NCBI RefSeq assembly: GCF_023375815.1
Contig: NZ_CP067412.1
Location: 6,448,001 to 6,512,000 of the forward strand
Source of the DNA: Pseudomonas sp. HS6
GTDB taxonomy: Bacteria > Pseudomonadota > Gammaproteobacteria > Pseudomonadales > Pseudomonadaceae
Direction of reading: 5' to 3'
DNA: 64,000 bases
Part shown: positions 37,852-63,965 of the stretch, piece by piece
How positions within the stretch are numbered: position 1 is the stretch's first letter
Layout of the letters: each line of letters begins with the position of its first letter
The notes under the pieces: model-generated
Told to the model about the DNA's origin: nothing
The model's database searches: none
What the model saw: only the letters and a program-made list of their open reading frames with translations
Program-made: the position numbers and the translations under genes

Positions 37852-38777
37852 ACGCCGCCGACTACCAATCCTTCGCCGACGCCTGGGAAAGCCGCGCCAC
37901 CATCCGCACCCGACCGCGCCGCGTGCTGGAGGACGACGCACGGCTGATCTACCCGCTCAGTCGCCAACCGCTGGTGCTCAGTGAAACCTTCCTGCGCGAA
38001 TGCCCGGAACAACGGGATTTCGCGCTGGTGCAGACGCTGTACAAATTTATCAACGACGTGGTGATTTTCGAGACTGAGATCGTCGACAAGACCGCCCGCA
38101 GCATCGCCAAGAACCGCTTCGCCGTGGCCTTCCCGTTCGCCTGTCGCTACGACGCCATGACCGTCGTCGTGGACGAGGATTACCACGCGCTCGTGGCGAT
38201 GGATTTCATGCAGCAGACCGTGGCCATGACCGGCATCGAGCCCATCGAGTTGCCGAATGAAATCGAACTGAGCCGGGCGATTCCTGCCGCCGTCGAATTG
38301 GCTCCGGAACATCTGCGCAGCGCCGTGGAGCTGATCTGCGTGGCCATCGCCGAGAACACCGTGACTGGCGATGTCGCGGCGTTTGCCCGGGACGACACAG
38401 TCAAGCCGTCGATCAAGGGCCTGATGGCCGACCACTTGCTCGACGAGGGCCGGCACTCGAGTTTCTGGGCGCGGATGGTGCGCATCTACTGGCACACCGC
38501 GAGCGACGCGGATCGCGAATGCATCGCGCAGATCCTGCCGGTGTTCATCGGCCACTACCTGACCAACGACATCCAGAAAGCCTTCGACCTGCGCCTGATC
38601 GATGCCTTGCCGGTCAACGAGGCAACCCGCCACGCGCTGAAGGACGAGATGGCCGGGCTGGCCTTCCCGATCAATCGCCACCACCCGCTGGTGGGCAACA
38701 TCGTGCGGTTTTTCCACAACAGCTCACTGCTCGACACACCGTGCGTACAGCACGCCCTGCGCGACTACCTGGTTTGA
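37848..38777 (+). CDS. mgoC: AurF-like di-iron N-oxygenase MgoC
   Basis: A 309-residue p-aminobenzoate N-oxygenase (AurF) family protein (PvfB). Metal-binding motifs are visible as [22 protein letters not shown] and DEGRHSSFW, giving the Glu/His set for a di-iron site. Family knowledge says it oxidises an amino nitrogen; in mgo/pvf the substrate is the amino-acid-derived unit handled by MgoA. It overlaps mgoB by four bases and mgoA follows after 13 bases, so the four genes form one operon. Confidence 0.9.
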
Positions 38778-38790
38778 CAAGGAGGCTGAC

Positions 38791-41700
38791 ATGAGACGTC
38801 TCGACATTTTGCTGATGGGCCGCAGCCAGGCCTTGACCGACCTGGCGCAGGAGCTCGAACAACACGGTCATTCATTGCTGACAGAGGCTGCTCCGTCGAT
38901 GGATCTGGTGATCGACGACGGCAGTCTTGCGCCGCAGCGTTACGGCGCGACACCGCACATGATCTTGCGTCTGGGCATCAGCCCGACGGGCGTCGGCGGG
39001 CTGCCGGTGCTCGATCTGCTGTGCCTCTGCAACTCGACACTGCTGAGTCGCGTGCCCATCGCCGATGAACCCTCCGGCAACGGTCAAGCCTTGCGCCAGC
39101 GAACACTCGCGCAGGTGGTGGATGAAGTGGCGCTGCTGGTCAGCCGTTTCTCTCGCGATGCGGAGTATTTCCAGCATGCAGAGACCGCCCGTGCGCCGGA
39201 CTTCGAGCAGGTGGAAAATCTGCTGTTTCTCGATCATCTGGCCTACGTCCATCGCTTCAATGCCACGGCTAATCCGCTGTTGCTGCAACAGGCACAGATC
39301 CCGGTGATAGAGCGGCTGCAACAGAGCCTGATCAAGCATGCCGGACGCCCGGCGCTGCACCTCGCCGAGCAGTCGATCAGCTATCGGCAGTTGCATGATC
39401 ACAGTCGGGCGATCCAGCAAAGGTTACTGGCGATGCTGGAGACACAACCGCAACCTTGGGTGGTGGGGATTTGCCTGCCGAAATGCGACGCGCTGTTTGC
39501 CTCGATCCTGGCAATTCTCGGCAGTGGCGCGGTGTACCTGCCGCTGGAACCGAGCCATCCGCTTCAGCGCCAGCAATACATTCTGGAAAACGCAGGGGCG
39601 GTGTTGCTGCTGCATGACGGCGAACATCCACTGAGCGATTCGATGCCGGGGCTGGACGTCAGTCGCATGAACGCTGCTGACGCAGATCTTTCGCAACCGC
39701 TGATGCGCCAGCGACCGTCGCTCGACTCTCCGTGCATGGCGCTCTACACCTCCGGCACCACCGGGCATCCGAAAGGTGTGCTGCTCAGTCAGGCTAACCT
39801 TGCGCACTTCACCGCGTGGTACGCCGATTACGTGCAGTTGCACGCCGAGAGTCGGGTGTTGCAGTTCTCGTCGCTGAGTTTTGACTCGTCGCTGATCGAC
39901 ATTTTCCCGACCCTGCTCGAAGGCGCGGAACTGGTAGTGCCCGACGACAACCAGCGGCGCGATCCGCTGCAATTGGTGGCGCTGATCCGCCGCCGGCAAC
40001 TGACCCACGCGTTCCTGCCACCGGCGCTGTTGAGCATCCTGCCGTTGGAGCAACTTCAAAGCGTCGGGCAAATCATGACCGGCGGCGATGTGTGCGAGCC
40101 GTTCGTGATCGAGCAACTGACGCGCCATGGCAAGCTGCACAACCTTTACGGCCCTACCGAAGCCACGGTGTTGATCACTGCGCGGCAATTGCAGCCGGGC
40201 GACAGCAACCGCAGCCTCGGCGGGCCGATTGCCAACAGTCAGGTGCTGATCCTCGATGACGACCTGCAACCGGTGGCGGAGCAAACGGTGGGCGAACTGT
40301 TCATCGTCGGCCCGGGCGTATGCCTGGGTTACCTGAACAATCCGCAGCAGACCGCCGAACGCTATCTGAACCTGGAGTTGCCGGACGGCCAGCGTCTGCG
40401 CGCCTACCGCAGCGGCGACATGGCCAAGTGGGGCGAAGACGGCATCGAGCTGTGCGGGCGTCGCGATAATCAGGTGAAGATCCGGGGTTTCCGGGTCGAG
40501 CCGGAAGAGATCGAGCGGTGCCTGCGCGAGAGCCAGTTGTATCGGCAGATCGCCGTGGTGATCGACAGTCAGCGGCGGATTCTGGCGTTCCTCGCCCAGC
40601 CGCAATCAGACGCCGCGCGCGAGTTTTTGAGAGCTCACGCGCAACAGTTCCTGCCCGACTACATGCAACCGGTGGCGTGGACGGAACTGCCGAACATGCC
40701 GTTCGCCGCCAACGGCAAAGTCGACCGCAAGGCCTTGCTGGAATTGCCGGTGAGCGTGCAAGACAGCGGCCCCAAATGCCTGCCGGCCAACGCCGATGAA
40801 GCGCTGCTGCTGGAGATCTGGGGCGAGTTGCTGGAGCTGCCGACCAGCGACATTTCCACCGACGAAAGCTTCTTCAATCTCGGCGGTCACTCGATTCTGC
40901 TGTCGCGCATGCTCCTGCGACTGCGGGAGGAGTTCGGCCGCAGCATTTCGATCAACCGCTTCATCGAACTGCCAACCATCATCAAGCTCGCCACGCTGGT
41001 TCGCGGCACCGATGACAGCGCGGTGCTCAGCGCCCAGGCAATGGCCGACGCCGAGCGACCGCTGGACATCGAGCCGTTACCGATCAGCCGCATGGGCGAT
41101 GTGCACAAGGTGATCGTCACCGGCGCCAACAGTTTTGTCGGCGTGCACATCGTCGAGGCGTTGCTGGGTTGGGGCGCCAGCGAGGTGGCGTGCCTGGTGC
41201 GCGATGGCGGCGGGCAAACGGCGGCGCAGCGCTTTGCCCAATCGTTGCGAGAGAACCGGCTGGAGCATCTGGACCTGAGTCGGGTGCGAGTCTATTCGGC
41301 GGACATCACCCAGCCGCAACTGGGCCTGGCCGATGACGATTTCGAGCGACTGGATCGCGAGTTCGGCGCGCTGGTGCACAACGCCGCCAACGTCAATCAC
41401 GTCCTCGACTACGAGTCGCTGGCGGCGGACAACGTCGAGCCGATTTTCGAACTGCTGCGGCTGTGCGAAGGGCGCAGCAAAAAGGTGTTCAATTTCGTCT
41501 CGACGCTGTCGGCCTCCAGCACCGTCGACGACGCAGGCCGGGTGCTGGAATTGCCCGCCGCACCGACGCCGCCGATCTACATCCGCAACGGCTACAACCT
41601 GTCGAAATGGGTTGGCGAACGCATCCTCGAACGGGCCCGGGAACGTCGAGTACGGGTCAATCTGTATCGGCCCGGCAACATCAGTTTCAACAGCCTCAGC

Positions 41701-42180
41701 GGCGTCTGCCAGCCGCACAAGAACCGTTTGATGCTGATGCTCAAGGGCTCGATCCAGCTCGGCCAGGTCCCGGCCTTCGCGCTGAATTTCGACCTGATGC
41801 CGGTGGATTTCCTCGCCCGTTTCATCGCCTTCCACGCCAGCCGTTATTCGCCCGAACGGGCGGTGTTCAACCTGCATAACCCGGAGCCCTTGAGCTGGGA
41901 TGCCTACGTCGCGTCGTTTCGCGAAACCGGCAGCGAATTTTCGCTGGTTAGCGTCGCCGACTGGCAGCAGCAACTGGGCCGGGTCGATGCCGACAACGCG
42001 CTGTTCGGCGTGCTCGGTTTCTACCTCAACGGCTTCGAGGAAGACATCGGCGACATCTCCCTGATCGGCCACTCCAACGCCCAGGCCGGTGTGCAGCAGA
42101 TGGGCGCGCACTATCCGGAAAAATCCCCGGCGCTACTGCGTCGCGGCTGCGACTACCTGAAAGAAATCAACTTCATCTGA
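38791..42180 (+). CDS. mgoA: Nonribosomal peptide synthetase MgoA (A-PCP-reductase)
   Basis: A single-module synthetase of 1129 residues with a perfect AAGGAGG ribosome site. An N-terminal region (1-160) of unclear fold precedes the adenylation domain (about 170-650; LYTSGTTGHPKGV, NLYGPTEATV, DNQVKIRGFRVEPEEIE, NGKVDRKALL). The carrier domain has LGGHSI with the phosphopantetheine Ser at 701. The thioester reductase (about 770-1129) has VTGANSFVG and the catalytic YNLSK. The product is released as an aldehyde or alcohol. Size and architecture match MgoA/PvfC of P. syringae and P. entomophila, which activate leucine or valine. The amino acid used here is not read from sequence. Confidence 0.92.
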   Translation: MRRLDILLMGRSQALTDLAQELEQHGHSLLTEAAPSMDLVIDDGSLAPQRYGATPHMILRLGISPTGVGGLPVLDLLCLCNSTLLSRVPIADEPSGNGQALRQRTLAQVVDEVALLVSRFSRDAEYFQHAETARAPDFEQVENLLFLDHLAYVHRFNATANPLLLQQAQIPVIERLQQSLIKHAGRPALHLAEQSISYRQLHDHSRAIQQRLLAMLETQPQPWVVGICLPKCDALFASILAILGSGAVYLPLEPSHPLQRQQYILENAGAVLLLHDGEHPLSDSMPGLDVSRMNAADADLSQPLMRQRPSLDSPCMALYTSGTTGHPKGVLLSQANLAHFTAWYADYVQLHAESRVLQFSSLSFDSSLIDIFPTLLEGAELVVPDDNQRRDPLQLVALIRRRQLTHAFLPPALLSILPLEQLQSVGQIMTGGDVCEPFVIEQLTRHGKLHNLYGPTEATVLITARQLQPGDSNRSLGGPIANSQVLILDDDLQPVAEQTVGELFIVGPGVCLGYLNNPQQTAERYLNLELPDGQRLRAYRSGDMAKWGEDGIELCGRRDNQVKIRGFRVEPEEIERCLRESQLYRQIAVVIDSQRRILAFLAQPQSDAAREFLRAHAQQFLPDYMQPVAWTELPNMPFAANGKVDRKALLELPVSVQDSGPKCLPANADEALLLEIWGELLELPTSDISTDESFFNLGGHSILLSRMLLRLREEFGRSISINRFIELPTIIKLATLVRGTDDSAVLSAQAMADAERPLDIEPLPISRMGDVHKVIVTGANSFVGVHIVEALLGWGASEVACLVRDGGGQTAAQRFAQSLRENRLEHLDLSRVRVYSADITQPQLGLADDDFERLDREFGALVHNAANVNHVLDYESLAADNVEPIFELLRLCEGRSKKVFNFVSTLSASSTVDDAGRVLELPAAPTPPIYIRNGYNLSKWVGERILERARERRVRVNLYRPGNISFNSLSGVCQPHKNRLMLMLKGSIQLGQVPAFALNFDLMPVDFLARFIAFHASRYSPERAVFNLHNPEPLSWDAYVASFRETGSEFSLVSVADWQQQLGRVDADNALFGVLGFYLNGFEEDIGDISLIGHSNAQAGVQQMGAHYPEKSPALLRRGCDYLKEINFI

Positions 42181-42203
42181 CTCATCAACCAAGGAGCAAC
42201 ACC

Positions 42204-42671
42204 ATGAGCAATCTTCAACCCGACACCCTGATCAAAAACCCTCACGGCTGCCACGTCGTGTCTTCGGTGGAAGTGCCGGTGGATGCCAAACAAGTGTGGG
42301 CGGTGGTCGGCAAATTCGACGGTTTCGACCGTTTCATTCCGGCGTTGTCGCACATCGAGATGACCGGTGAAGGCGTGTCTTCGCTGCGCAAGAAATTCTT
42401 CAAGGATGGCAACGTGGTGGTCGAGCAACTCAACTCCCGGGACGACCAGGCGCTGAGCATGACCTGGACCACGATCTATAACACCCTGGGCGTGGCCAAC
42501 CTTTGGGCGGCGATGAATGTGGAATCGCTGGGCGCGGGCAAGTCGCGGGCAACCTGGACGATCATCGCCGAGCCGGCCAGCGGCGGCCCCGAGGCGCTGC
42601 CGGGGTTCAAGGATTTCGTGCAGGGGTTTGCCGATGATGCGATGGGCAATGTGCTGAAGCTGTTTGTGTAA
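42204..42671 (+). CDS. mgoD: SRPBCC-fold protein MgoD
   Basis: A 155-residue START/polyketide-cyclase-like protein (PvfD) with the SRPBCC opening SSVEVPVDAKQVWAVVGKFDGFDRFIP. The fold forms a deep hydrophobic ligand pocket. Its exact step in the mgo pathway is not known to me. An AAGGAG ribosome site lies before ATG, 23 bases after mgoA. It is the last gene of mgoBCAD. Confidence 0.88.
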   Translation: MSNLQPDTLIKNPHGCHVVSSVEVPVDAKQVWAVVGKFDGFDRFIPALSHIEMTGEGVSSLRKKFFKDGNVVVEQLNSRDDQALSMTWTTIYNTLGVANLWAAMNVESLGAGKSRATWTIIAEPASGGPEALPGFKDFVQGFADDAMGNVLKLFV

Positions 42672-42677
42672 GGCATG

Positions 42678-42719
42678 AAAAAGCCCGCTGCGGATCACTC
42701 CGCAGCGGGCTGTTTTTTG
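42678..42719. terminator. Bidirectional terminator, mgoD and chemoreceptor
   Basis: AAAAAGCCCGCTGCGGA and TCCGCAGCGGGC form a twelve-base GC stem flanked by A-run and T-run. It serves the mgo operon on one strand and the convergent chemoreceptor gene on the other. Confidence 0.95.
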
Positions 42720-42730
42720 ACCGCAAGCGA

Positions 42731-44611
42731 TCAGATCTTGAAGCTGTCGACCAGTTGTTTCAAACGGTTGGCCTGCTGCGACAACGCATCGCAATCCTTC
42801 AGCGTTTCATTGAGGTTGGCCACGCTTTGCTGGTTCAGCAGGTTGATCTGGTTGACGTCGACGTTGAGGGTTTCCACCACCGCAGTCTGCTCTTCGGTAG
42901 CGGCTGCCACCGACTGGTTCATGCCGTCGATTTCGCCGATACGCTGGGTCACGCTGACCAGACGCAGACCGGCCTGGTTCGCCACTTCAACGCTCTCTTC
43001 GCTGGACGCCTGACTGGCGTTCATGGTGGTCACCGCTTCGCGGGAGCCGACCTGCAGCGAGGTGATCATCTTGTGGATCTCTTCCGCCGATTCCTGGGTG
43101 CGGTGAGCGAGGTTGCGCACCTCGTCCGCCACCACCGCAAAACCGCGTCCGGCTTCACCGGCACGGGCCGCCTCGATGGCCGCGTTGAGCGCCAGCAGGT
43201 TCGTCTGCTGGGAGATGCCTTTGATCACGTCGAGAATGTGGCCGATGTTGTCGGTGCTCGCATTCAGGGTTTCGATCTGGGTGCACGACAGGCTGATCTT
43301 CTGCGACAGCTCGGTCATCGCCTGAATCGTCTGCTCGACCACCTGACGACCGTCATCGGCCTGCTCGCTCGCGCCGCTGGCGTGTTGCGAAGCATCGGCG
43401 GCGTTGCGGGCGATTTCCTGGGTGGCGGCGCCCAACTCGTTGATCGCGGCAGCGACGCTATTGGTGCGCGCACTTTGCTCGTCGGAACCGATGATCGAGG
43501 CGTTGGACGATGCCATGACCCGTTGCGATAGGTCGTGTACGTGTCGAGTCGCGGAGGACACTTCGGAAATGGATGCGTGAATCCGCTCGACGAACTGGTT
43601 GAACGAACTGCCCAGCTCGCCGAACTCGTCTTTGCTTTCCACTACCAGACGGCGAGTCAGGTCACCTTCACCCTGAGCGATGTCCTGCATCGCGCGGCCC
43701 ATGGTGATCAGAGGACGCATCAGCACGGTGATCAACAGGCTCAGGAACACCGCAATCGCACCCACTGCGACGAACATTGCGATCAGTGCCGAGGTACGGA
43801 ACTGGCTGAGTGCGGCGTAAGCCTTGTCGCGATCGATCGACAGACCGATGTACCACTCGGCATTCGGCAGACCGCTGACCGGGGTGAACGACAGGATGCG
43901 TTCCTGACCGTTGAGCACCACGTTCTGGTTGCCCTTCTGGATACGCACATCGGCGTTCGGGTAGATGTCCTTGAGGTTCTTCATCACCTGGTCTTTGTCC
44001 GGGCTGACGATCACCTGACCGTCACCGCTGACCAGGAACGCGTGACCCAGGCCACCGAAGTCCACCGAGTTGATGATCTTCACCAGGGTTTCCAGGCTCA
44101 GGTCACCGCCCACTACACCGAGCAGCTCGCCGTTCTTTTTCACCGGCATGGCGATGGTCACTACCAGACCGCCGACAGCGGCCATATATGGCGGGGTCAG
44201 CATGGTCTGGTCAGCGGCCACGGCCTGCTTGTACCAAGGGCGCTGACGCGGGTCGTAGCCATCCGGCATCTTCGCGTCCGGACGCTGGGTGAACACACCG
44301 TTGGCTTGGCCGACGTAGGTGAACTGGAAGTTCGAGGTGAAGGCCGGTTGATCGACCAGCCCCGGGAAATCGGCGTTCTTGCCCTGATGAGCGACGTTCT
44401 GCGCGAGGTTTTCCAGCACCAGGATCCGCCCGCTCATCCAGTTCTGCACACTGCTGGCGGTCAGGTCGCCGGCCTGCTGGACGGAGGACTGTAGGTTCTG
44501 GCGAATGGTGTTTCGCTGCAGATAGTCGTTGTACAAAGTGAACAGCGCGAACGCCAGGACCACGACGCCCGAGGCGGCCAACAGGATTTTATGGCTGAAC
44601 TTGAGATTCAT
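42731..44611 (-). CDS. Methyl-accepting chemotaxis protein, dCache type
   Basis: A 626-residue chemoreceptor: TM1 (about 7-28), double-Cache periplasmic domain (30-275), TM2 (about 280-305), HAMP, and a signalling domain with the invariant hairpin tip ([20 protein letters not shown]). The start MNLKFSHK is chosen because the upstream frame is not protein-like. In the ligand pocket, [11 protein letters not shown] and GGDLSLE match the amino-acid motif of PctA-type receptors, but the PPYMAAVGG segment lacks the Asp usually seen two residues after that Tyr. The ligand may therefore differ from an alpha-amino acid. Confidence 0.92.
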
Positions 44612-44922
44612 TTCATGGGACTTCTTATGCCAAAAGTGGGGATGCGTTCCGGATGCAACATTCCATGTACAGCGCAGGCAGCGTTCTGATGGCCGCTCTA
44701 CTTTGGTGCACGCATGTCTCACCAGTCTGTCGGCACGTTTCGGAGAAAACTTAGCGCTTTGTAGGAAATGGACGGCATTTCTGCCAGATTCCCGCCGAAC
44801 GGCGTGCCAGAGCGTTTACCTGTGATTTTTTGATGTCTGTTTCGTTGCGCCGGTTGCAAATTCTGTAACCCTTGATGACAATGCGACTAATTATCATTTG
44901 TGACGTTCGGGCTGTCGCGTTC
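44612..44922. promoter_or_regulatory. Divergent control region, chemoreceptor/sigma factor
   Basis: A 311-base gap between divergent genes. The part next to the sigma factor gene holds a probable Fur site (44,883-44,901). I see nothing else with a clear function. Confidence 0.5.
44883..44901 (+). promoter_or_regulatory. Probable Fur box
   Basis: GCGACTAATTATCATTTGT agrees at 11 of 19 positions with the Fur consensus GATAATGATAATCATTATC, including an unbroken ATCATT core. It lies 22 bases before the sigma factor start, where iron repression of fecI-type genes usually acts. Confidence 0.6.
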
Positions 44923-45423
44923 ATGTCATCACCTGAGTTTGCAGTACAGGCGCTTTACAGTCGTCATCACGGCTGGCTCAACGGCTGGTTGCGCGCGCGG
45001 CTGGGCAATGCGGCCGATGCGGCGGATCTGGCCCAGGACACTTTCGTTCGCCTGCTGCAACGCACCGAGCGTCTGGAACTCAAGGCACCTCGCGCGTTTC
45101 TGCGCACCATCGCTCGCGGCCTGGTCATCGACCATTGGCGACGCGAGGAAATCGAACGCGCCTACCTGGAAACCATCGCCCACTTGCCCGAAGCCGAGAC
45201 ACCCAGTGCCGAATCCCGCGCACTGGTGATCGAGCTGCTGGAAAGCATTGCCCGCATGCTTGAAGGACTGAAGCCAAAAGTACGTCAGGCGTTTCTGCTG
45301 GCACAGTGCGAAGGTTTGACCCACCAGCAGATTGCCGAACAGATGGGCCTGTCGTTGCGCTCGGTGGAACGCTACGTCGCCGATGCGCTGTATCACTGTT
45401 ACGTGCTGCGGTACGAAAGCTGA
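44923..45423 (+). CDS. foxI: ECF iron-starvation sigma factor, FoxI-like
   Basis: A 166-residue group IV sigma factor. Region 2 is seen as DLAQDTFVRLLQRTE and region 4 as GLTHQQIAEQMGLSLRSVERYVADAL. ATG at 44923 gives the usual length; the frame upstream runs through the Fur site. Its stop overlaps the ATG of the anti-sigma gene (TGATG). The gene order sigma, FecR, STN-receptor, PepSY protein is that of foxIRAB of P. aeruginosa, the basis for the symbol. Other FecI systems share most of this order. Confidence 0.8.
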   Translation: MSSPEFAVQALYSRHHGWLNGWLRARLGNAADAADLAQDTFVRLLQRTERLELKAPRAFLRTIARGLVIDHWRREEIERAYLETIAHLPEAETPSAESRALVIELLESIARMLEGLKPKVRQAFLLAQCEGLTHQQIAEQMGLSLRSVERYVADALYHCYVLRYES

Positions 45424-46436
45424 TGCCGGTGGATAACGTGTCACTCGCCCGTAGCGCCGAGCCACCGCAACAAGTGGTCAAACAGGCGATCCACTGGCTG
45501 CTGCGCCTGCGCAATAACCACGGCAATCCGCGCCTGAACCACCAATGCGAGCAGTGGCGCGCCGAACACCACGATCACGAACTGGCCTGGCAACGGGTGC
45601 AGTCGTTGCAAAGTGAGCTGACCCGAAATCTGCGCGCCGTTCCGGGTGCGCAAGTGGCATTCAACACACTGGAAAACAGTGCGCAGGGCCTGGGTCGCCG
45701 TCAGGCGTTGAAGCTGCTGTCCGGCGCGTTGTTGATGGGCTCCGCCGCGTGGCTGGCCAGAGACACGTCTGCCTGGCAGCAGTGGAGCGCCGATTACGCG
45801 ACCGCCACCGGCGAGCGCCGCGGATTCCAGTTACCCGATGGCACGCGGATCGAACTGAACACAGCCAGCGCCGTGGACCTCGATTACACGGCGCAACAGC
45901 GGCTGATCAAACTGACGCGGGGCGAGATCATCGTGACCTGCGGTGTTGCAGATGAAAGTTCGTCAAATGACAGACCGCTTCGAGTGCAAAGTCGTCATGG
46001 CACCTATGAGCCGTTCAACGCGCGGTTCATCCTGCGTCAGGAAGGCGATTGCACACGTCTGAGCGTCACCAATGGCCGGGTCGCAATTCATTCGCCACGG
46101 GCGAGCGATGGCACTTCCACCGAGGTGCTTGCCGGCCAGAGTTATCTGATCGACCACCAACAGGCGCGTCCCGCTCCGCCGCTGGACATGGATGCCGGCG
46201 CCTGGGTCGACGGGCTTATCGTGACGCGCAACATGCGCCTGGGCGATTTCCTCAATGAGGTTGGCCGCTATCGTCAGGGCTTCCTGAATTGCTCCCCGCA
46301 GGTGGCGGATCTGCGCTTGTCCGGCGTGTTCCGCCTCGATGACACCGACAAATTGCTCGCGATTTTGCCGCAAACCCTGCCGGTGCAATTGCGCTATCGC
46401 ACCCGCTGGTGGGTAACGCTGGAACGAGCAGTCTGA
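45423..46436 (+). CDS. foxR: FecR-type anti-sigma regulator, FoxR-like
   Basis: A 337-residue inner-membrane protein. The N-terminal cytoplasmic part (about 1-85) with AIHWLLRLRNNHGNP and HELAWQRVQSLQ binds the sigma factor. One membrane segment follows (ALKLLSGALLMGSAAWLA). The periplasmic FecR domain (about 120-337; FQLPDGTRIELNTASAVDLDY) would contact the receptor's signalling domain. It overlaps the sigma gene by one base. Confidence 0.85.
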   Translation: MPVDNVSLARSAEPPQQVVKQAIHWLLRLRNNHGNPRLNHQCEQWRAEHHDHELAWQRVQSLQSELTRNLRAVPGAQVAFNTLENSAQGLGRRQALKLLSGALLMGSAAWLARDTSAWQQWSADYATATGERRGFQLPDGTRIELNTASAVDLDYTAQQRLIKLTRGEIIVTCGVADESSSNDRPLRVQSRHGTYEPFNARFILRQEGDCTRLSVTNGRVAIHSPRASDGTSTEVLAGQSYLIDHQQARPAPPLDMDAGAWVDGLIVTRNMRLGDFLNEVGRYRQGFLNCSPQVADLRLSGVFRLDDTDKLLAILPQTLPVQLRYRTRWWVTLERAV

Positions 46437-46522
46437 ATTTTTTTGGCGGGTTTTCGTGGCAAGGCCGGCTTAGTCAGTAAGCACTTCAATTCAGCCTTCG
46501 CGACTTGCAACGGAAACCTACA

Positions 46523-49024
46523 ATGACTGCGCGCGTTACCTGTAAGAACCCTCTGAATTTCACTGCCGAATCGGGCCTTCTGCGTCACGCCGTTCGGGCT
46601 GCGTTGTTCTCCACGGCACTGGGCGTCGGCCTGCTGCCGAACCTGAGTGTTGCGGCGAGCGGCAGTGAGGTCAGCAGCCACCGCTACAACATCGCCGCCG
46701 GGCCATTGGGCGAAGCGCTGAATCAGTTCGCGCGCCAGGCCGGCATCACCTTGTCGATGACCCCGCAACAGACTCAAGGCCGACAATCACCTGCCGTGCA
46801 GGGCGAATATTCGGTAGATCAGGCGTTGAGTCATCTGCTCGGTGGCTCGGGTCTGGAGGCGGTCAGCCAGGACGGCAGCAGCTACGTCTTGCGCTCCGTC
46901 GCAGAAACCGAAGCGCTGGCCCTGCCGACTACCGACATCAAAGGTTTCGCCCTCGGCAACGCGCTGGGCAGCATGGACGGCTACAACGCGACGCACAGCC
47001 AGATAGCCACCAAAACCAGCACCGCGCTGCTGGAAACTTCGCAAAGCGTGTCCGTGGTCACCCGCGAGCAAATGGACGATCAGGGCTCGCAAACCGTTTC
47101 CCAGGCCATGCGCTACACCCCGGGCGTGCTGACCAACCCCTATGGCGCCACGCACCGTTACGATTACGTGGCGATGCGCGGCTTCAACGATGGCTCGGTG
47201 GACAACATCTACCTCGACGGCCTCAAGTCCATGGGCGACAGCGGTACCTACAGCACCATGCAGGTCGATCCTTATTTCCTCGAGCGTGTGGACATTCTCA
47301 AAGGCCCGTCGTCGGTGTTGTACGGCCGCAGCTCGCCGGGAGGGCTGGTGGCGTTGACCAGCAAAAAACCGTTGTACGAGGCTTACCACCAGGTTCAGGC
47401 CACCGTTGGCACTCAGGGCCAGCGCGGTGTCGGTTTTGACTTCAGCGGTCCGGTCGATGACGACAAGCGAATCGCCTATCGTCTGATCAGTTTGACGGAT
47501 CAGTCCGACACGCAATTCGACCACAACAAGGAAAAACGCTTCGCCCTCGCGCCGACGGTCAGCATCGATTTCAACGAAGACACTTCGCTGACCCTGCAGG
47601 CGTATCTGCAGCATGACCCGGATGGCGGCTATCACGGTGGCGTACCGGCCGACGGCACGATTCATCAGCGCAACGGCAACCGCATCTCACCGCACTTCTT
47701 TGAAGGCGAGCCAGGTGTTGATGGCTATTCCCGCGATCAACAGTCGTTCGGTTATCAATTCGAACATCGCTTCAACGACGTCTTCACCGCGCGGCAGAAT
47801 TTCCGTTACCTCGACTCCAAAGTGAACATGGATCAGGTGTACGCCTATGGCTGGACGTCGCCGACCAGCAACGAGCTCAATCGCTACTACACCGGCGGTG
47901 ACGAGCGACTGCACGCGTTCATCGTCGACAACATGCTCCAGGCCGAATTCTTCACCGGCGCGACCAAGCACACGGTGCTGATGGGAGCGGATTACCAGCG
48001 GCGCAAAACGGTGGTCGACTGGACCAGCGGTGGTCTGGCGCCAATCAATGCGTTCAATCCGGAGTACGGCAATTCCGCTATTACGCCGTACGGTGAGACC
48101 AGTTACCTGCGTCGCCTGGAGCAGACCGGGGTTTACCTGCAAGACCTGATTGAAATGGACAAATGGCGCTTCTCCCTTGGTTTGCGTCAGGACTGGGTAG
48201 AGACGTCCGAGGAGAACCGGAATGCCGAGGCGAGCCGTCCGCTCGGCACCGAGATCAGCGACAAACGCACCAAACTGACGGGCCGTGTCGGCGCGCTGTA
48301 CCTGTTCGACAACGGCCTGGCGCCGTACATCAGCTACTCGGAGTCGTTCAATCCCAACTCCTATGCCGACAGCGCCGGCAATCCGCTGGCTCCAACGGAT
48401 GGCACGCAGTGGGAAGCAGGTCTGAAGTACCAGCCACCCGGCACCGACAATCTGTTCACGGCCTCGCTGTTCCGCATCGATCAGGAAAACCTGGCAACCA
48501 AACTCCCGCAGGAAAACTTCTACCGTGCTGTAGGCGCTGTCCGCTCTCAGGGTCTGGAACTGGAGGCGCACATGCAGCTCACCGACAACCTGAAAGTGCT
48601 CGGTAGCTACACCTTCACTGACATCGAGTACTCGAAATCGATGGTCAGCACCCTGAGCACCCCGACCAACGTGATCGAGAACAAAGGCAACTCTCCGACT
48701 CAGGCGCCGCGACACATGGCGTCGTTGTGGGCGGACTACAAGTTCGACAGCGCAGCACTGGATGGCGTGCGAGTGGGCGGCGGTGTGCGTTATGTCGGCT
48801 ATAGCTGGGCGGATGCAGAGAACACTATGAAGGTGCCGTCCTACACGTTGTTCGACGCGTCGATCGGTTATGACCTTGGCAAGGTTGGCTTGAAGGGTGT
48901 CGACGTACGCCTGAATGCCAACAACCTGACCAACGAATCCTACGTGGCCTCCTGCGCCAGTCTGAACTTCTGCTACATGGGCGAGGAGCGCAACGTCGCC
49001 GCCACGGTCAGCTACCAGTTCTAA
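46523..49024 (+). CDS. foxA: TonB-dependent ferrisiderophore receptor, FoxA-like
   Basis: An 833-residue outer-membrane transducer. A signal peptide (about 1-43) is followed by an STN signalling domain (about 50-125; YNIAAGPLGEALNQFARQAG), a plug (about 165-270; SQSVSVVTREQMDDQG, DGLKSMGDSGTY) and a 22-strand barrel ending in the C-terminal Phe (SYQF). A CASLNFC cysteine pair near the end is typical of hydroxamate receptors of the FoxA/FhuA type. The ATG start is used instead of an upstream TTG. Ferrioxamine is the likeliest ligand by gene order; this is inferred. Confidence 0.88.
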   Translation: MTARVTCKNPLNFTAESGLLRHAVRAALFSTALGVGLLPNLSVAASGSEVSSHRYNIAAGPLGEALNQFARQAGITLSMTPQQTQGRQSPAVQGEYSVDQALSHLLGGSGLEAVSQDGSSYVLRSVAETEALALPTTDIKGFALGNALGSMDGYNATHSQIATKTSTALLETSQSVSVVTREQMDDQGSQTVSQAMRYTPGVLTNPYGATHRYDYVAMRGFNDGSVDNIYLDGLKSMGDSGTYSTMQVDPYFLERVDILKGPSSVLYGRSSPGGLVALTSKKPLYEAYHQVQATVGTQGQRGVGFDFSGPVDDDKRIAYRLISLTDQSDTQFDHNKEKRFALAPTVSIDFNEDTSLTLQAYLQHDPDGGYHGGVPADGTIHQRNGNRISPHFFEGEPGVDGYSRDQQSFGYQFEHRFNDVFTARQNFRYLDSKVNMDQVYAYGWTSPTSNELNRYYTGGDERLHAFIVDNMLQAEFFTGATKHTVLMGADYQRRKTVVDWTSGGLAPINAFNPEYGNSAITPYGETSYLRRLEQTGVYLQDLIEMDKWRFSLGLRQDWVETSEENRNAEASRPLGTEISDKRTKLTGRVGALYLFDNGLAPYISYSESFNPNSYADSAGNPLAPTDGTQWEAGLKYQPPGTDNLFTASLFRIDQENLATKLPQENFYRAVGAVRSQGLELEAHMQLTDNLKVLGSYTFTDIEYSKSMVSTLSTPTNVIENKGNSPTQAPRHMASLWADYKFDSAALDGVRVGGGVRYVGYSWADAENTMKVPSYTLFDASIGYDLGKVGLKGVDVRLNANNLTNESYVASCASLNFCYMGEERNVAATVSYQF

Positions 49025-49041
49025 GCCTTTGTCTTGTGCAT

Positions 49042-49080
49042 AAAAAAGCCAGTCCCTGAGATTCAGGGACTGGCTTTGTC
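49042..49080 (+). terminator. Terminator after the receptor gene
   Basis: AAAAAAGCCAGTCCCTGA pairs with TCAGGGACTGGCTTT. It leaves only about 20 bases before the PepSY gene start, which may reduce that gene's expression relative to the receptor. Confidence 0.85.
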
Positions 49081-49100
49081 GTATTCGTGGGGAAAATTTC

Positions 49101-50279
49101 ATGCGTTCTTTTTTGGTTTTACTGCACCGGTATATCGGGTTGGCCACGGCTGTGTTTCTGCTGCTGGCGGGAATCACGGGCAGCATTCTGGCGTTCAACC
49201 ATGAACTGGATGAGTGGCTGAATCCGGAGTTTTACGCGGCTTCGGCCGAGGGGGAGCGTCTACCACCTGGTGAGCTGGTCGATGCGGTGCAATCTGTACA
49301 TCCGAAGTTGCAGGTCTGGTACATGGAGTATCCGAATGAGGCAGGCCACACAGCCTTGCTGGCGGCGGTTCCACGTAATGATCCAGCAACGGGCAAACCT
49401 TTCGATGAGCCTAATCAGGTGTTCTACCTCGACCCGGTCAGTGGTGAGCAAAAAGGCCAGCGCTATTGGGGCGAATGCTGTTTTCAGCGTGAGAACTTCG
49501 TTCCGTTCATTCTCGAGTTCCACTACAACCTGACACTGCCCGGTAACTGGGGTTTGCTGTTGATGGGGTTGGTGGCCATCGCCTGGGTGATTGATTGCTT
49601 CATCGCTCTCTGGCTGACTTTGCCGCGGGGTAAACCCTTCTGGAAGAAGTGGTCGACCGCGTGGAAGATCAAAGGCGGGCATGCTTATCGGCTCAACTTC
49701 GATCTGCATCGTGCGGGGGGGCTGTGGCTGTGGTTGTTATTACTGCCTATAGCCGTCAGCAGTGTGGCCATGAACCTGCCGAGTCAGGCCTTCAAACCAG
49801 TGGTATCGCTGTTTTCTCCGATTGAGCCGAGTGTGTATGAGTCCCGAGGGCGGATGCCTGCCAAAGAGCTGGGGATCACCCGATTGAGTTATCAACAGGT
49901 ATACGAAAGAGCGCAGCAGGAGGGAAAAAGGCTAGGGCTGACTGCTGCGATCGGTGAGTTGTATTACAGCTTTGAGTACAACTTCTACGGTGCAGGGTTT
50001 GGACAGCATGACACCGAGGCCCATGGTAAATCCTGGTTGTTCTTCCACGGTACGGACGGGCGGTTACTGGGGCAGGAGATCGCAGGAGAAGGGACGTTAG
50101 GAGAGCGGTTTTATCGGTTGCAGTTGCCTATACACGGTGGAAGGATCATAGGCTTTACCGGGCAAGTGATGATCGCGGTATTGGGTGTTCTGATTGCGGG
50201 GTTGTCCGGGACAGGCGTCTACATCTGGTGGCGCAAATGGCAGGCTCGTCGAAGCAGCAAGGTCCGCAGAGCGGTTTGA
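49101..50279 (+). CDS. foxB: PepSY-TM iron-siderophore reductase, FoxB-like
   Basis: A 392-residue inner-membrane protein with four membrane segments (about 8-32, 148-172, 205-228, 350-375) of the PepSY-associated TM family. The opening LLHRYIGLATAVFLLLAGITGS and the conserved His residues in the helices fit a haem-bearing ferric reductase. In P. aeruginosa the gene downstream of foxA (foxB) has this architecture and helps release iron from ferrioxamine and ferrichrome. The last bases of the gene's own terminator region are cut by the seam at about 50,336. Confidence 0.8.
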   Translation: MRSFLVLLHRYIGLATAVFLLLAGITGSILAFNHELDEWLNPEFYAASAEGERLPPGELVDAVQSVHPKLQVWYMEYPNEAGHTALLAAVPRNDPATGKPFDEPNQVFYLDPVSGEQKGQRYWGECCFQRENFVPFILEFHYNLTLPGNWGLLLMGLVAIAWVIDCFIALWLTLPRGKPFWKKWSTAWKIKGGHAYRLNFDLHRAGGLWLWLLLLPIAVSSVAMNLPSQAFKPVVSLFSPIEPSVYESRGRMPAKELGITRLSYQQVYERAQQEGKRLGLTAAIGELYYSFEYNFYGAGFGQHDTEAHGKSWLFFHGTDGRLLGQEIAGEGTLGERFYRLQLPIHGGRIIGFTGQVMIAVLGVLIAGLSGTGVYIWWRKWQARRSSKVRRAV

Positions 50280-50310
50280 AAATCGGGCTTTTGCAGGCTC
50301 TGAAACGACA

Positions 50311-50336
50311 AAACCCCTGTCTGCATTAGCAGACAT
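50311..50336 (+). terminator. Half terminator at a sequence seam
   Basis: AAACCCCTGTCTGC-ATTA-GCAGAC starts as a typical hairpin, but the expected continuation AGGGGTTT is missing. Instead, coding sequence of tufB begins. It looks like a terminator cut after the inner part of its right arm. Confidence 0.6.
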
Positions 50337-50771
50337 ACTACCGTCACCACCTGCACCGGTGTTGAAATGTTCCGCAAACTGCTCGACGAAGGTCGTGCTG
50401 GCGAGAACTGCGGCGTTCTGCTGCGCGGCACCAAGCGTGACGACGTTGAGCGTGGTCAGGTTCTGGTTAAGCCAGGTACCGTTAAGCCGCACACCAAGTT
50501 CACCGCAGAAGTTTACGTTCTGAGCAAGGAAGAAGGCGGCCGTCATACTCCGTTCTTCAAAGGCTATCGTCCACAGTTCTACTTCCGTACTACTGACGTG
50601 ACCGGTAACTGCGAGCTGCCAGAAGGCGTTGAAATGGTAATGCCAGGTGACAACATTCAGATGACTGTTACCCTGATCAAAACCATCGCGATGGAAGATG
50701 GTCTGCGTTTCGCTATCCGTGAGGGCGGTCGTACCGTCGGCGCTGGTGTCGTAGCCAAAATCATCGAGTAA
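50337..50771 (+). pseudogene. tufB: 5'-truncated tufB (EF-Tu C-terminal 144 codons)
   Basis: From ACT-ACC-GTC on, the frame reads [19 protein letters not shown] and continues unbroken to the normal EF-Tu C-terminus ([11 protein letters not shown]). It encodes part of domain 2 and all of domain 3. About 253 N-terminal codons, including the whole GTPase domain, are missing, and the preceding codons do not resemble EF-Tu. No ribosome site precedes the first in-frame ATG. tufB-trnW-secE-nusG is the normal Pseudomonas order downstream; the normal upstream tRNA cluster is absent. A complete tufA is expected after fusA, outside the window. Confidence 0.93.
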
Positions 50772-50792
50772 GTAGTTGTAATGTATTTTTCG

Positions 50793-50819
50793 GGCCGGCA
50801 TAATGGTCGGCCTGATTTT
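50793..50819 (+). terminator. Hairpin between tufB and tRNA-Trp
   Basis: GGCCGGC-ATAATG-GTCGGCC forms a stem followed by TGATTTTG. It could end part of the tufB transcripts or act as a processing site ahead of the tRNA. Confidence 0.5.
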
Positions 50820-50824
50820 GTTTT

Positions 50825-50900
50825 AGGTCAGTAGCTCAATTGGCAGAGCGACGGTCTCCAAAACCGTAGGTTGGGGGTTCGATTCCCTCCTGACCTGCCA
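50825..50900 (+). tRNA. trnW: tRNA-Trp (CCA)
   Basis: A 76-base cloverleaf: acceptor AGGTCAG / CTGACCT, D-loop TAGCTCAATTGGCAGAGC, anticodon stem ACGGT / ACCGT with loop CTCCAAA (anticodon CCA), T-loop GTTCGATTC, and a genomically encoded CCA end. Its place between tufB and secE is standard in Pseudomonas. Confidence 0.97.
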
Positions 50901-50945
50901 GATTCACTCGGTGTGTCTGGCTTTCTTTTCACAGGATCTTCATAG

Positions 50946-51314
50946 ATGACTCCTAAGGCTGAAGCTCAAGGCTCTCGCTTCGATCTGCTTAAGTGGCTTG
51001 TAGTGGTCGCTTTGGTGGTTGTTGGCGTTGTAGGCAATCAGTATTACTCTGCTTCGCCGATCCTGTACCGCGTACTCGCATTGCTTGTCATTGCTGCTGT
51101 AGCTGCCTTTGTAGGCCTGCAGACTGCCAAGGGCAAGTCTTTCTTTGTACTGGTTAAGGAAGCTCGCACCGAGATTCGTAAAGTCGTATGGCCAACTCGC
51201 CAAGAAACCACGCAGACCACGTTGATTGTTGTGGCTGTTGTTCTGGTTATGGCGTTGCTGTTGTGGGGGCTTGATTCCCTGCTCGGCTGGCTTGTTTCCT
51301 TGATTGTCGGCTAA
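50946..51314 (+). CDS. secE: Preprotein translocase subunit SecE
   Basis: A 122-residue integral membrane subunit of the SecYEG channel with three predicted helices (about 17-35, 42-60, 92-117). The conserved cytoplasmic SecE signature EARTEIRKVVWPTRQETTQT is at about 72-90. The ATG lies 45 bases after tRNA-Trp. It is followed by nusG after nine bases, the universal secE-nusG pair. Confidence 0.97.
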   Translation: MTPKAEAQGSRFDLLKWLVVVALVVVGVVGNQYYSASPILYRVLALLVIAAVAAFVGLQTAKGKSFFVLVKEARTEIRKVVWPTRQETTQTTLIVVAVVLVMALLLWGLDSLLGWLVSLIVG

Positions 51315-51323
51315 GGGTGTCCC

Positions 51324-51857
51324 GTGGCTAAGCGTTGGTACGTTGTGCATGCTTACTCGGGTTACGAGAAGCATGTAATGCGCTCGCTGATCGAGCGTGT
51401 AAAGCTGGCTGGCATGGAAGATGGCTTCGGCGAAATTCTGGTTCCCACTGAAGAAGTGGTTGAAATGCGTAATGGCCAGAAGCGCAAAAGCGAACGTAAG
51501 TTCTTCCCTGGCTATGTGCTGGTCCAGATGGATATGAACGAGGGTACTTGGCACTTGGTCAAGGATACTCCTCGGGTGATGGGTTTTATCGGCGGTACTG
51601 CTGATAAGCCTGCACCAATCACTGATAAAGAAGCAGAGGCGATCCTGCGTCGCGTTGCTGACGGTAGCGACAAGCCGAAGCCGAAGACGTTGTTCGAGCC
51701 AGGTGAAACCGTTCGTGTCAATGACGGTCCTTTCGCTGACTTTAACGGTGTTGTTGAAGAAGTTAACTACGAAAAGAGCCGGATCCAAGTGGCGGTGCTC
51801 ATTTTCGGTCGCTCTACTCCGGTAGAGTTGGAGTTCAGTCAGGTCGAAAAGGTCTAA
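51324..51857 (+). CDS. nusG: Transcription antitermination factor NusG
   Basis: A 177-residue factor that binds RNA polymerase and couples it to Rho or to the ribosome. The start is GTG ([20 protein letters not shown]). The NGN domain (about 1-115) has [13 protein letters not shown] and the C-terminal KOW domain has [20 protein letters not shown]. Length and motifs are normal. Confidence 0.98.
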
Positions 51858-51872
51858 CTGGACAAGCATCCC

Positions 51873-51904
51873 AACCCCGCAGCCGTAGGCTGTGGGGTTT
51901 TGTC
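51873..51904 (+). terminator. Terminator after nusG
   Basis: AACCCCGCAGCC and GGCTGTGGGGTTTT form a stem with loop GTA and end in a T-run, separating secE-nusG from the ribosomal protein genes. Confidence 0.85.
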
Positions 51905-51974
51905 GTCACTGGGATAAACGCGCAAGTAACCGGGGAGCCTTTCGAGGCGATCGAACCCGTAATTGGAGTGCCTC

Positions 51975-52406
51975 ATGGCCAAGAAGATTACCGCTTACAT
52001 CAAGCTGCAAGTGAAGGCCGCTCAGGCTAACCCAAGTCCACCTGTTGGTCCTGCTCTGGGTCAGCACGGCGTGAACATCATGGAATTCTGCAAAGCTTTC
52101 AACGCCCGTACCCAGGGTCTGGAAGCTGGTCTGCCGACTCCAGTGATCATCACTGTCTACAGCGACCGTAGCTTCACTTTCGAAACCAAATCCACCCCTG
52201 CTTCGGTTCTGCTGAAGAAAGCGGCCGGTCTGACCAGCGGTTCCGCTCGTCCGAACACCGTTAAGGTTGGCACTGTTACCCGTGCTCAGCTGGAAGAGAT
52301 CGCGAAAACCAAAAACGCGGATCTGACTGCAGCTGATATGGATGCAGCCGTGCGTACTATCGCCGGTTCTGCTCGTAGCATGGGCCTTAACGTGGAGGGT
52401 GTGTAA
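51975..52406 (+). CDS. rplK: 50S ribosomal protein L11
   Basis: A 143-residue protein of the GTPase-associated centre. The start [20 protein letters not shown] with the [20 protein letters not shown] loop is diagnostic. ATG at 51975 is chosen, with TTGGAG upstream, over an ATG four codons earlier. Its stop overlaps the rplA start (TAATG). Confidence 0.98.
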
Positions 52407-53101
52407 TGGCTAAGCTGACCAAGCGTCAAAAGGCTATCGCCGGCAAAATCGAAGCAGGCAAGGCCTACAACTTTGTAGACGCCGCCGCACTGCTGGCCGA
52501 GCTGTCGACTGTCAAGTTCAGCGAGTCGTTTGACGTTGCTGTAAACCTGGGCGTAGACCCGCGTAAATCCGACCAGGTTGTTCGTAGCGCTACTGTGCTG
52601 CCACACGGCACTGGCAAGACCGTTCGCGTTGCTGTGTTCACCCAGGGTCCAGCTGCTGAGGCCGCTCTGGCTGCCGGCGCTGACCGTGTAGGTATGGACG
52701 ACCTGGCTGCCGAAATGAAAGGCGGCGACCTGAACTATGACGTAGTGATTGCATCCCCGGATGCAATGCGCGTTGTAGGTCAACTGGGTCAGATCCTCGG
52801 TCCACGTGGCCTGATGCCTAACCCTAAAGTCGGCACCGTAACTCCAGACGTAGCCACCGCGGTTAAAAACGCCAAGGCTGGTCAGGTTCGTTACCGCACC
52901 GACAAAAATGGCATCATCCACACTTCCGTTGGCAAGATCGGCTTCGATGCCGTCAAGCTGAAGGAAAACGTTGAAGCACTGATCGCTGATCTGAAGCGTA
53001 TCAAGCCAGCTTCCTCGAAAGGTATCTACGTCAAGCGCGTTACCCTGAGCACCACTATGGGCCCAGGTCTGGTTATCGACCAGAGCTCGCTGGACGCGTA
53101 A
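52406..53101 (+). CDS. rplA: 50S ribosomal protein L1
   Basis: A 231-residue L1-stalk protein that also represses its own operon in E. coli. [39 protein letters not shown] and the C-terminal [14 protein letters not shown] are family hallmarks. Translation is coupled to rplK by a one-base overlap. Confidence 0.98.
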
Positions 53102-53107
53102 GACAAA

Positions 53108-53131
53108 ATTGGCACGAGTTATCGTGCCAAT
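53108..53131 (+). other. Hairpin between rplA and the L10 leader
   Basis: ATTGGCACGA-GTTA-TCGTGCCAAT is a perfect ten-base stem. It lacks a T-run, so it is more likely a processing or stability element than a terminator. Confidence 0.6.
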
Positions 53132-53139
53132 CGAAAGAT

Positions 53140-53226
53140 TGGGGTCCCTGCCTGGCGGGGGCTATCCAAGACCGTAGGCGACGCAAGTCTTAAACCTCAA
53201 GCCTACGCAGATGGTGCTCCCGGTTC
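53140..53226 (+). ncRNA. Ribosomal protein L10 leader
   Basis: Upstream of rplJ lies CCGTAGGCGACGCAAGTCTT, then CCTCAAGCCTACGCAGATGG, a pairing (GTAGGC / GCCTAC) with an internal bulge. This is the L10-leader architecture by which L10-L7/L12 complex represses translation of rplJL in proteobacteria. The match is by eye. Confidence 0.75.
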
Positions 53227-53298
53227 CTTACCGAATCAGACACCAAAACGACATTCGGTTCCGATCGAATGAAACGGTAACAAGCAGGAGTTAAACCC

Positions 53299-53799
53299 GT
53301 GGCAATTAATCTCGAAGACAAGAAGGCCATCGTCGCTGAAGTCAACGAGGCTGCCAAAGTCGCTCTGTCCGCTGTCGTGGTTGATGCCCGTGGCGTAACA
53401 GTAGGCGCAATGACCGGACTCCGTAAAGAGGCTCGTGAAGCTGGCGTTTACGTACGTGTTGTACGTAACACCCTGCTCAAGCGCGCTGTTGCTGGTACTT
53501 CGTACGAAGTGCTCAACGACGCGTTCACCGGCCCGACCCTGATCGCATTCTCGAACGAACATCCGGGCGCTGCTGCTCGTATTTTCAAAGAGTTTTCGAA
53601 GGGTCAGGACAAGTTCGAGATCAAGGCAGCTGCGTTCGAGGGCAAGTTCCTCGCAGCTAATCAGATCGACGTTCTGGCAACTCTGCCGACCCGTGACGAA
53701 GCAATTTCTCAGCTGATGAGCGTGATTCAAGGCGCTACCAGCAAATTGGCTCGTACTCTGGCGGCAATTCGCGACCAGAAAGAAGCTGCTGCAGCCTAA
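53299..53799 (+). CDS. rplJ: 50S ribosomal protein L10
   Basis: A 166-residue base of the ribosomal stalk. The start is GTG ([19 protein letters not shown]), preceded by CAGGAG. The middle [12 protein letters not shown] and the C-terminal helix [14 protein letters not shown], which binds L7/L12 dimers, are clear. It lies downstream of the L10 leader and upstream of rplL. Confidence 0.98.
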
Positions 53800-53873
53800 G
53801 GCTCGTCAGCTTCTCGCGTTTTTTGTTTATTTCGATGGTCGCGTAGGCCGTCCCCCAATTCAGGAATTGAGTC

Positions 53874-54239
53874 ATGTCTCTGACTAACGAACAAATCATC
53901 GAAGCAATCGGCCAGAAATCCGTAGTGGAAATCGTTGAGCTGATCAAAGCGATGGAAGAAACCTTCGGTGTTACCGCTGCTGCTGCTTCGGCTGGTCCAG
54001 CTGCTGCTGCCGCTGTTGTTGAAGAGCAAACCGAGTTCAACGTTGTTCTGCTGGAAGCTGGCGAGAAGAAGGTTAACGTGATCAAGGCAGTTCGTGAACT
54101 GACCGGTCTGGGCCTGAAAGAAGCCAAAGAGAAAGTAGACGGCGCTCCTCAGGTTGTAGCTGAAGGCGTTTCGAAAGAAGCTGCTGAAGACGCCAAGAAG
54201 AAGCTGGAAGAAGCAGGCGCTAAAGTCGAGCTGAAATAA
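53874..54239 (+). CDS. rplL: 50S ribosomal protein L7/L12
   Basis: A 121-residue stalk protein. An N-terminal dimerisation domain (1-35), an Ala-rich hinge ([15 protein letters not shown]) and a C-terminal factor-binding domain ([16 protein letters not shown]) are all present. It is acidic, as expected. Confidence 0.98.
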
Positions 54240-54285
54240 GTATCGACTTTGCTCCTCCAGCCCGAGCGTCAAGCGAAAGGCTGAT

Positions 54286-54315
54286 GGCTGGTGGCTCTTG
54301 CCACCGGCCTTTTTC
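54286..54315 (+). terminator. Attenuator between rplL and rpoB
   Basis: GGCTGGTGGC-TCTT-GCCACCGGCC followed by TTTTT forms a strong intrinsic terminator. In other bacteria a partial terminator at this place lowers rpoBC transcription relative to rplJL; the same role is inferred here. Confidence 0.85.
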
Positions 54316-54459
54316 CGTTATTGGCAGCCGACTGGGTCGGTGCCGATAACGAGCTGTAACCACCCGATGCGGTGGCGCAAACCATGGGGTTTGCACGATT
54401 TTCTGGCTGCTCCCGTCGGGAGGGGCCAAACAAGCAGGTGACCAAGCTGGGGAACGCTG

Positions 54460-58533
<4,074 letters not shown>

Positions 58534-58596
58534 CACGTGACGCGATCGAGAGCGGGGCAGGATTGCCCGCTCTCTGCTCCGCCAGGAGGAAAGGCC

Positions 58597-62796
<4,200 letters not shown>

Positions 62797-62815
62797 GTTC
62801 TGCGGAAAATGAGCT

Positions 62816-62888
62816 AAGGCCCTGATCGAACCGCTCATCGAATCGAGACAATTTGTCGAGGTTCGACGAGCGGGGAGGTCGGGGCCTT
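62816..62888 (+). other. Long imperfect hairpin between rpoC and rpsL
   Basis: The left arm (62816-62851) and right arm (62853-62888) pair over some 36 positions, with about 30 Watson-Crick or G-U pairs. Mismatches fall near the middle and close to the tip; ends are AAGGCC / GGCCTT. No T-run follows, so an RNase III-type processing site or partial stop of rpoBC transcripts is more likely than a simple terminator. Confidence 0.7.
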
Positions 62889-62891
62889 GCC

Positions 62892-62920
62892 TTGACTGGG
62901 GACAAGATCCTCTTTAGACT
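62892..62920 (+). promoter_or_regulatory. Sigma70 promoter for rpsL operon
   Basis: TTGACT, a 17-base spacer and TAGACT form a near-consensus -35/-10 pair, about 90 bases before the rpsL start. It would give the rpsL-rpsG-fusA-tufA genes their own promoter. Confidence 0.75.
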
Positions 62921-63011
62921 CTTGATCCCCTAAATTTGGCGGGAATTCGTTCCTGCCATTTTGCTTTTCTTGCAAGACAATAGCGTCGCAAGACAACAGT
63001 GGAGCTAGTAG

Positions 63012-63383
63012 ATGGCAACTATCAACCAGCTGGTACGTCAGCCGCGTAAGCGTATCGTCGAGAAATCCGACGTGCCTGCGCTGCAGAACTGCCCGCAACG
63101 TCGTGGCGTGTGCACCCGTGTGTACACCACTACGCCGAAAAAACCTAACTCGGCACTGCGTAAAGTATGCCGTGTGCGTCTGACCAACGGTTTCGAGGTT
63201 TCCTCGTACATCGGTGGTGAAGGCCACAACCTGCAAGAGCACAGCGTGGTACTGATCCGCGGCGGTCGTGTAAAAGACTTGCCAGGTGTTCGTTACCACA
63301 CCGTTCGCGGCTCCTTGGATACTTCCGGCGTTAAAGGCCGTAACCAGGGTCGTTCGAAGTACGGTACCAAGCGTCCGAAGTAA
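63012..63383 (+). CDS. rpsL: 30S ribosomal protein S12
   Basis: A 123-residue decoding-centre protein ([14 protein letters not shown]). The streptomycin-relevant lysines in [18 protein letters not shown] and [17 protein letters not shown] are wild type. GTGGAG precedes the ATG. Confidence 0.99.
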
Positions 63384-63491
63384 TCGGCCGTTTTGAAGAT
63401 TTTCATTTTATTGAGTCGATAAGAGTAAGGTCGGGCGCGCATCCTCTGGATCTGTCCCGAGCTAACCTGAAGACCGTTTGAGGGCTTATCA

Positions 63492-63965
63492 ATGCCAAGA
63501 CGTCGCGTAGCAGCAAAGCGTGAGATTCTGGACGATCCGAAATACGGAAGCCAAATCCTCGCCAAATTCATGAACCACGTTATGGAAAGCGGCAAGAAAG
63601 CCGTTGCCGAGCGTATCGTTTATGGTGCCCTGGAAACCGTTGCGACCCGTAAGGCTGGCGCCGATCCCCTGGAACTCTTCGAAAAAGCACTCGACGCCAT
63701 CGCTCCGCTGGTCGAAGTGAAGTCGCGCCGCGTTGGTGGTGCTACTTACCAGGTTCCGGTCGAAGTTCGTCCGTCCCGTCGTAACGCTCTGGCAATGCGC
63801 TGGTTGGTAGACTTCGCCCGTAAGCGTGGCGAGAAGTCTATGGCTCTGCGCTTGGCTGGCGAGCTGCTGGATGCTGCTGAAGGTAAAGGTGCTGCTGTTA
63901 AGAAGCGTGAAGACGTGCACCGTATGGCCGAAGCCAACAAAGCTTTCTCGCACTACCGCTTCTAA
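63492..63965 (+). CDS. rpsG: 30S ribosomal protein S7
   Basis: A 157-residue primary binding protein of the 16S rRNA 3' domain ([50 protein letters not shown]). It lies between rpsL and fusA in the standard str operon order, 108 bases after rpsL. Confidence 0.99.

Follow-up and report, generated by a model that had tools for sequence, protein, structure and literature searches.

The truncated tufB of the single-contig Pseudomonas sp. HS6 record lies at a seam that is very probably an assembly artefact

The sequence under study belongs to Pseudomonas sp. HS6, whose record NZ_CP067412.1 is one contig of 6,547,752 bases. The window, that is, the whole stretch of 64,000 bases analysed, corresponds to bases 6,448,001-6,512,000 of this record. 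At window positions 50,336/50,337, sequence flanking a PepSY_TM gene, with the left part of a hairpin, abuts EF-Tu codon sequence. Read directly, the bases at this seam are ...aaaacccctgtctgcattagcagac on the left side and atactaccgtcacc... on the right side. The window contains no gap letters (N), and the sequence reads straight across the point. The features are as follows.

about 22147-22159, no strand: second seam, inside repeat-rich adhesin sequence (comparison with the DTU12.3 chromosome)
22159..50336, no strand: left-hand contig of the main seam, which is about 28.2 kb long and stops at an rRNA operon (collinear, in reverse, with about 392-364 kb of Pseudomonas sp. DTU12.3)
49101..50279, plus strand: PepSY_TM gene, the last of the left contig (Pfam PF03929, E 7e-55; ORF of 392 aa)
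50309..50335, no strand: cut hairpin, consisting of the left arm and inner stem of a terminator that separates PepSY from the rRNA operon (whole in relatives, followed there by 5S rRNA)
50336..50337, no strand: main seam, very probably an artificial join of two contigs (direct reading and tuf comparisons)
50337..50771, plus strand: 3' piece of tufB, from about EF-Tu residue 251-254 to the end (profile, tuf comparisons, Pfam)
50337..64000, no strand: right-hand contig, 15.85 kb in all, which runs past the window and ends 49 bases inside tufA (collinear with the inter-tuf stretch of DTU12.3, L125 2501-18354)
50825..50900, plus strand: tRNA-Trp, the normal downstream neighbour of tufB (ARAGORN)

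To the left of about 50,336, the PF03929 match and the direct reading agreed with the initial annotation, which had recognised the 3' flank of a PepSY gene and the left part of a hairpin. Of 121 PepSY relatives, we compared the best 80, the nearest being Pseudomonas pharyngis BML-PP036 (96% identical). In 60 of these 80 (L020-L080 without L079), PepSY is followed by 5S rRNA or by a contig end at the hairpin; a 5S rRNA word lies 67-234 bases past PepSY in 51 loci, and a contig ends 63-97 bases past it in the other nine. An Rfam scan of six loci (L031, L039, L055, L056, L065 and L068) found 5S and then 23S on the minus strand in every case. Another neighbour follows PepSY in 20 of the best 80 relatives, a point that was counted against an artefact. 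These 20 (L079 and L081-L099), which are mostly Stutzerimonas and 68-72% identical, had no 5S word in the flank examined. Furthermore, a contig ended at most 1,000 bases past PepSY in 53 of the best 80 relatives, indicating that other assemblies also break there. Window positions 44872-50279 hold an ordinary iron-uptake-like set, comprising a TonB-dependent receptor (Pfam), the PepSY_TM gene and two ORFs that resemble, by eye, an ECF sigma factor and its regulator.

The folding energy of the hairpin was -10.5 kcal/mol in the window, compared with -25.8 and -25.4 kcal/mol for the whole hairpin in the two relatives folded; its right half is indeed missing, as had been annotated. Given the 5S and 23S genes after PepSY and the whole hairpin in relatives, the half-hairpin is what remains of a terminator that separates PepSY from a convergent rRNA operon. 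The earlier description as a cut PepSY terminator was therefore correct as to the cut, but the hairpin is not simply that of PepSY.

On the right side, the tuf match begins at 50,337 in independent comparisons with the other copy in the record and with a relative. The tufB remnant stays in frame up to its stop codon (50,769-50,771; 134 aa counted from the first ATG), and Pfam assigned it domain 3 of EF-Tu together with the end of domain 2. Its start at about residue 251-254 fits the initial reading of in-frame EF-Tu codons from about residue 254 onward. Downstream of tRNA-Trp, secE, nusG and genes for ribosomal proteins were recognised by eye from their translations. Ordinary Pseudomonas RNA elements, all above gathering scores, were found within this ribosomal and RNA-polymerase gene cluster at window positions 53110-53298 (P27), 54245-54310 (P26) and 62877-63012 (rpsL leader).

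We searched the whole record with an EF-Tu model. No match reached the cut-off, and no complete tuf was found in 6.55 Mb; in 14 control genomes, the same model matched in 14 and was above the cut-off in seven. Two complete relatives each carry two full-length tuf copies about 16.6 kb apart, as found with this model. In HS6, the two 3' tuf pieces align from profile positions 247 and 251 of 394. When the 1,191-base tuf of a relative was compared with the whole record, exactly eight places matched, jointly covering bases 1-1191 without a gap. In coordinates of that tuf, numbered from the stop end, the pieces are as follows.

1-433 and 1-432: two 3' pieces, one in the window and the other beside the S10 operon, 1.39 Mb away
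431-561: single piece, one copy
559-1019 and 568-1014: two middle pieces, joined tail to tail
1016-1143: single piece, one copy
1144-1191 and 1142-1190: two 5' ends, one after fusA and the other after the Tyr-Gly-Thr tRNA cluster

The pieces are scattered over the record, and their copy pattern along the gene is 2-1-2-1-2 (3' ends, single, middles, single, 5' ends). This pattern is expected if near-identical genes are assembled from too-short reads, because stretches on which the copies agree come out once and stretches in which they differ come out twice. The tuf parts missing at the seam were found elsewhere in the record in just this way, with one copy of the shared stretches and two of the divergent ones. 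In addition, the second copy, tufA, is cut at the same point as tufB. Between the two 3' pieces there are 11 differences in 435 positions, none of them in the first 89 bases, indicating that the break lies somewhat inside a shared stretch. The offset between the breaks and the first base at which the copies differ was counted against an artefact. Both single-copy pieces make up the last two scraps of the record, and they stand side by side in an order found in no tuf gene. The unrelated sequence after the other cut tuf copy (L003 8103-8479) contains small ORFs without assigned function and a match to C4 antisense RNA (Rfam RF01695, 73 bits).

The tRNA-Tyr/Gly/Thr cluster is absent at the seam and present at about 6,523.8-6,524.1 kb, 25.5 kb past it. 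The cluster is thus not lost from the record, in line with the earlier prediction that it would lie elsewhere. A missing 5' piece of tufB had also been suggested as worth looking for, and a tuf 5' end was found after this same cluster.

Other multi-copy genes are collapsed too. A 23S match was obtained at one place in the record versus six in the complete DTU12.3. A probe spanning 5S to the terminator matched one scrap near the end of the record, and comparison with relatives showed that this scrap starts with the far side of the hairpin. The tRNA-Ile/tRNA-Ala spacer is another scrap within the last 10 kb. We dropped the absence of 16S as evidence; the family search was negative here, yet it matched only 9 of 14 control genomes. 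Both sides of the seam at 50,336/50,337 border on such multi-copy sequence: the left side stops at the edge of an rRNA operon, and the right side begins inside the duplicated tuf.

Further joins were observed at about 22,150, after fusA, around the 23S and in the last 10 kb. At the seam near 22,150, collinearity with DTU12.3 is to about 1,946-2,006 kb on the left side and to about 392-364 kb, reversed, on the right side. An ORF of 3,916 aa (window 20254-32004) is a chimera over this point, in which RTX-type repeats (about 2,003-2,006 kb of DTU12.3) are by chance in frame with LapA adhesin repeats (about 392 kb, reverse). To the left of the window, 15.5 kb (G000:C1:6405889-6421372) had no match in the compared DTU12.3 stretch, which has about 2.6 kb there; this is either a strain-specific insert or another join. 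The final 10.75 kb of the record (L101 1-10752) is a patchwork of repeat scraps with mostly chimeric ORFs, containing LapA/RTX adhesin pieces, tuf pieces, one 5S and one Ile/Ala tRNA spacer.

The sizes of the delimited blocks fall broadly along the record. Outside about 6,524-6,541 kb, and with uncertain BLAST ends, these blocks measure, in record order, about 69.3, 28.2, 15.85, 4.09, 3.22 and 2.75 kb, and those of the tail 447, 461, about 275, 142, 131 and 128 bases. The 69.3 kb block is bounded on the left by the loss of collinearity inside repeats and includes the 15.5 kb without a DTU12.3 match, and the 4.09 kb block is merely what remains between its neighbours. The decrease is broad and not strict: 447 precedes 461, and a scrap of about 129 bases, which sits between the 5S scrap and the last two scraps, precedes 131. 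These shrinking sizes suggest that contigs were likely concatenated by length without gap letters. We also considered the overlaps between scraps as the signature of a particular assembler and rejected this, since the BLAST ends overlap by only a few bases and no assembler can be named from them.

We searched for the junction in 119 genomes of the genus, the HS6 record included. Among the matches listed, a match across the seam was present only in the record itself and in none of the other 118 genomes. Of the latter, 106 gave some match and 12 none, and the best score of any of them did not exceed that of a 64-base one-sided match. A junction common to at least one relative would support a real rearrangement, without being required for it; none was seen among the matches listed, and a recent private event would give the same outcome.

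Taken together, we are close to certain, as judged from the sequence comparisons, that the seam is an assembly artefact in which collapsed contigs were concatenated into one record. The genome would carry tuf in two near-identical copies and the rRNA operon in several, and its assembly, presumably from short reads, would have yielded contigs that stop at these repeats. The contigs, sorted roughly from large to small, would then have been pasted end to end without gap letters. One such junction would be 50,336/50,337, where the end of one contig at the rRNA operon edge meets the start of another within tufB. To judge by the order in relatives, PepSY would in the cell be followed by the rRNA operon, and the Tyr-Gly-Thr tRNA cluster would lie in front of an unbroken tufB; both tuf genes are probably whole in the living strain. 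The seam is present in the sequence and very probably absent from the cell, and it is very unlikely that a mutation broke the EF-Tu gene.

The initial annotation had offered two explanations, a real event or a misjoin. According to the former, a deletion or translocation joined the rRNA-operon flank to the interior of tufB, a loss that would be tolerable if tufA were intact, with the cell living on tufA. The lack of gap letters where the sequence crosses the point is in keeping with such an event, and tuf genes and rRNA operons are known recombination sites. However, the rRNA flank and the tuf interior share no sequence that could bring them together, the supposedly lost pieces occur once or twice elsewhere as collapse predicts, similar joins exist elsewhere in the record, and the junction was found in no other genome among the matches listed. 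Moreover, the cut in tufA at the same point and the failure to find any complete tuf in the record, although EF-Tu is essential, leave a real loss of tufB unsupported. We regard this event as extremely improbable. A genuine strain-specific rearrangement between the rRNA flank and tufB that is masked by the collapse pattern of an otherwise badly assembled record is likewise extremely improbable.

A misjoin of two contigs at the duplicated tuf genes, the second explanation, gained strong support as to the misjoin itself; the part that placed the left contig at tuf did not hold, since an rRNA operon marks the end of that contig. The record is a single contig rated 100% complete with 0.26% contamination, which was counted against an artefact. 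The collinearity of most of the window with relatives, away from the two seams, is in keeping with just one misjoin, such as a wrong bridge at tuf, in a genome that is finished elsewhere. This version is nevertheless contradicted by the tail of scraps and by the second seam near 22,150. It also has against it the further joins that follow fusA, flank the 23S, follow the tufB 5' end at the tRNA cluster and run through the last 10 kb, as well as the single matches for 23S and 5S, and there is hardly any chance that it is correct. With the concatenation of collapsed contigs as the preferred explanation, the seam holds no novel biology.

This locus gives a warning that an apparently complete one-contig genome, rated 100% complete, can contain artificial joins that lack gap letters. 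Near such joins, the gene order, gene losses, chimeric genes and repeat copy numbers read from the record are untrustworthy. Window findings at about 22,150, or those resting on gene order over 50,336, should be treated as artefacts.

Our look through titles and the beginnings of abstracts gave no paper on point about concatenated 'complete' genomes, which is a statement about that search and not about what is in print. In Salmonella, recombination between tufA and tufB takes the form of gene conversion or inversion, and complete or hybrid tuf genes remain. The duplicated tuf is likewise involved in HS6, but its record yielded no complete tuf and has an rRNA flank as the partner. Draft Pseudomonas assemblies (L020-L080) break after the same PepSY gene as the HS6 record does, but they leave the contigs apart, whereas the HS6 record pastes them together. 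In 454 de novo assemblies of E. coli K-12 strains, passages of one report describe 62 common contig breaks, among them seven at rRNA clusters and four at repeated genes, namely tufA/B and gadA/B (PMC3045373). The HS6 seam resembles these assemblies, as far as those passages go, in that rRNA and tuf repeats are concerned, and here the two kinds meet at one point. The E. coli K-12 contigs are described there as joined with 100 Ns against a reference (PMC3045373); by comparison with that description, the HS6 record has no N at the join, and its order is not chromosomal.
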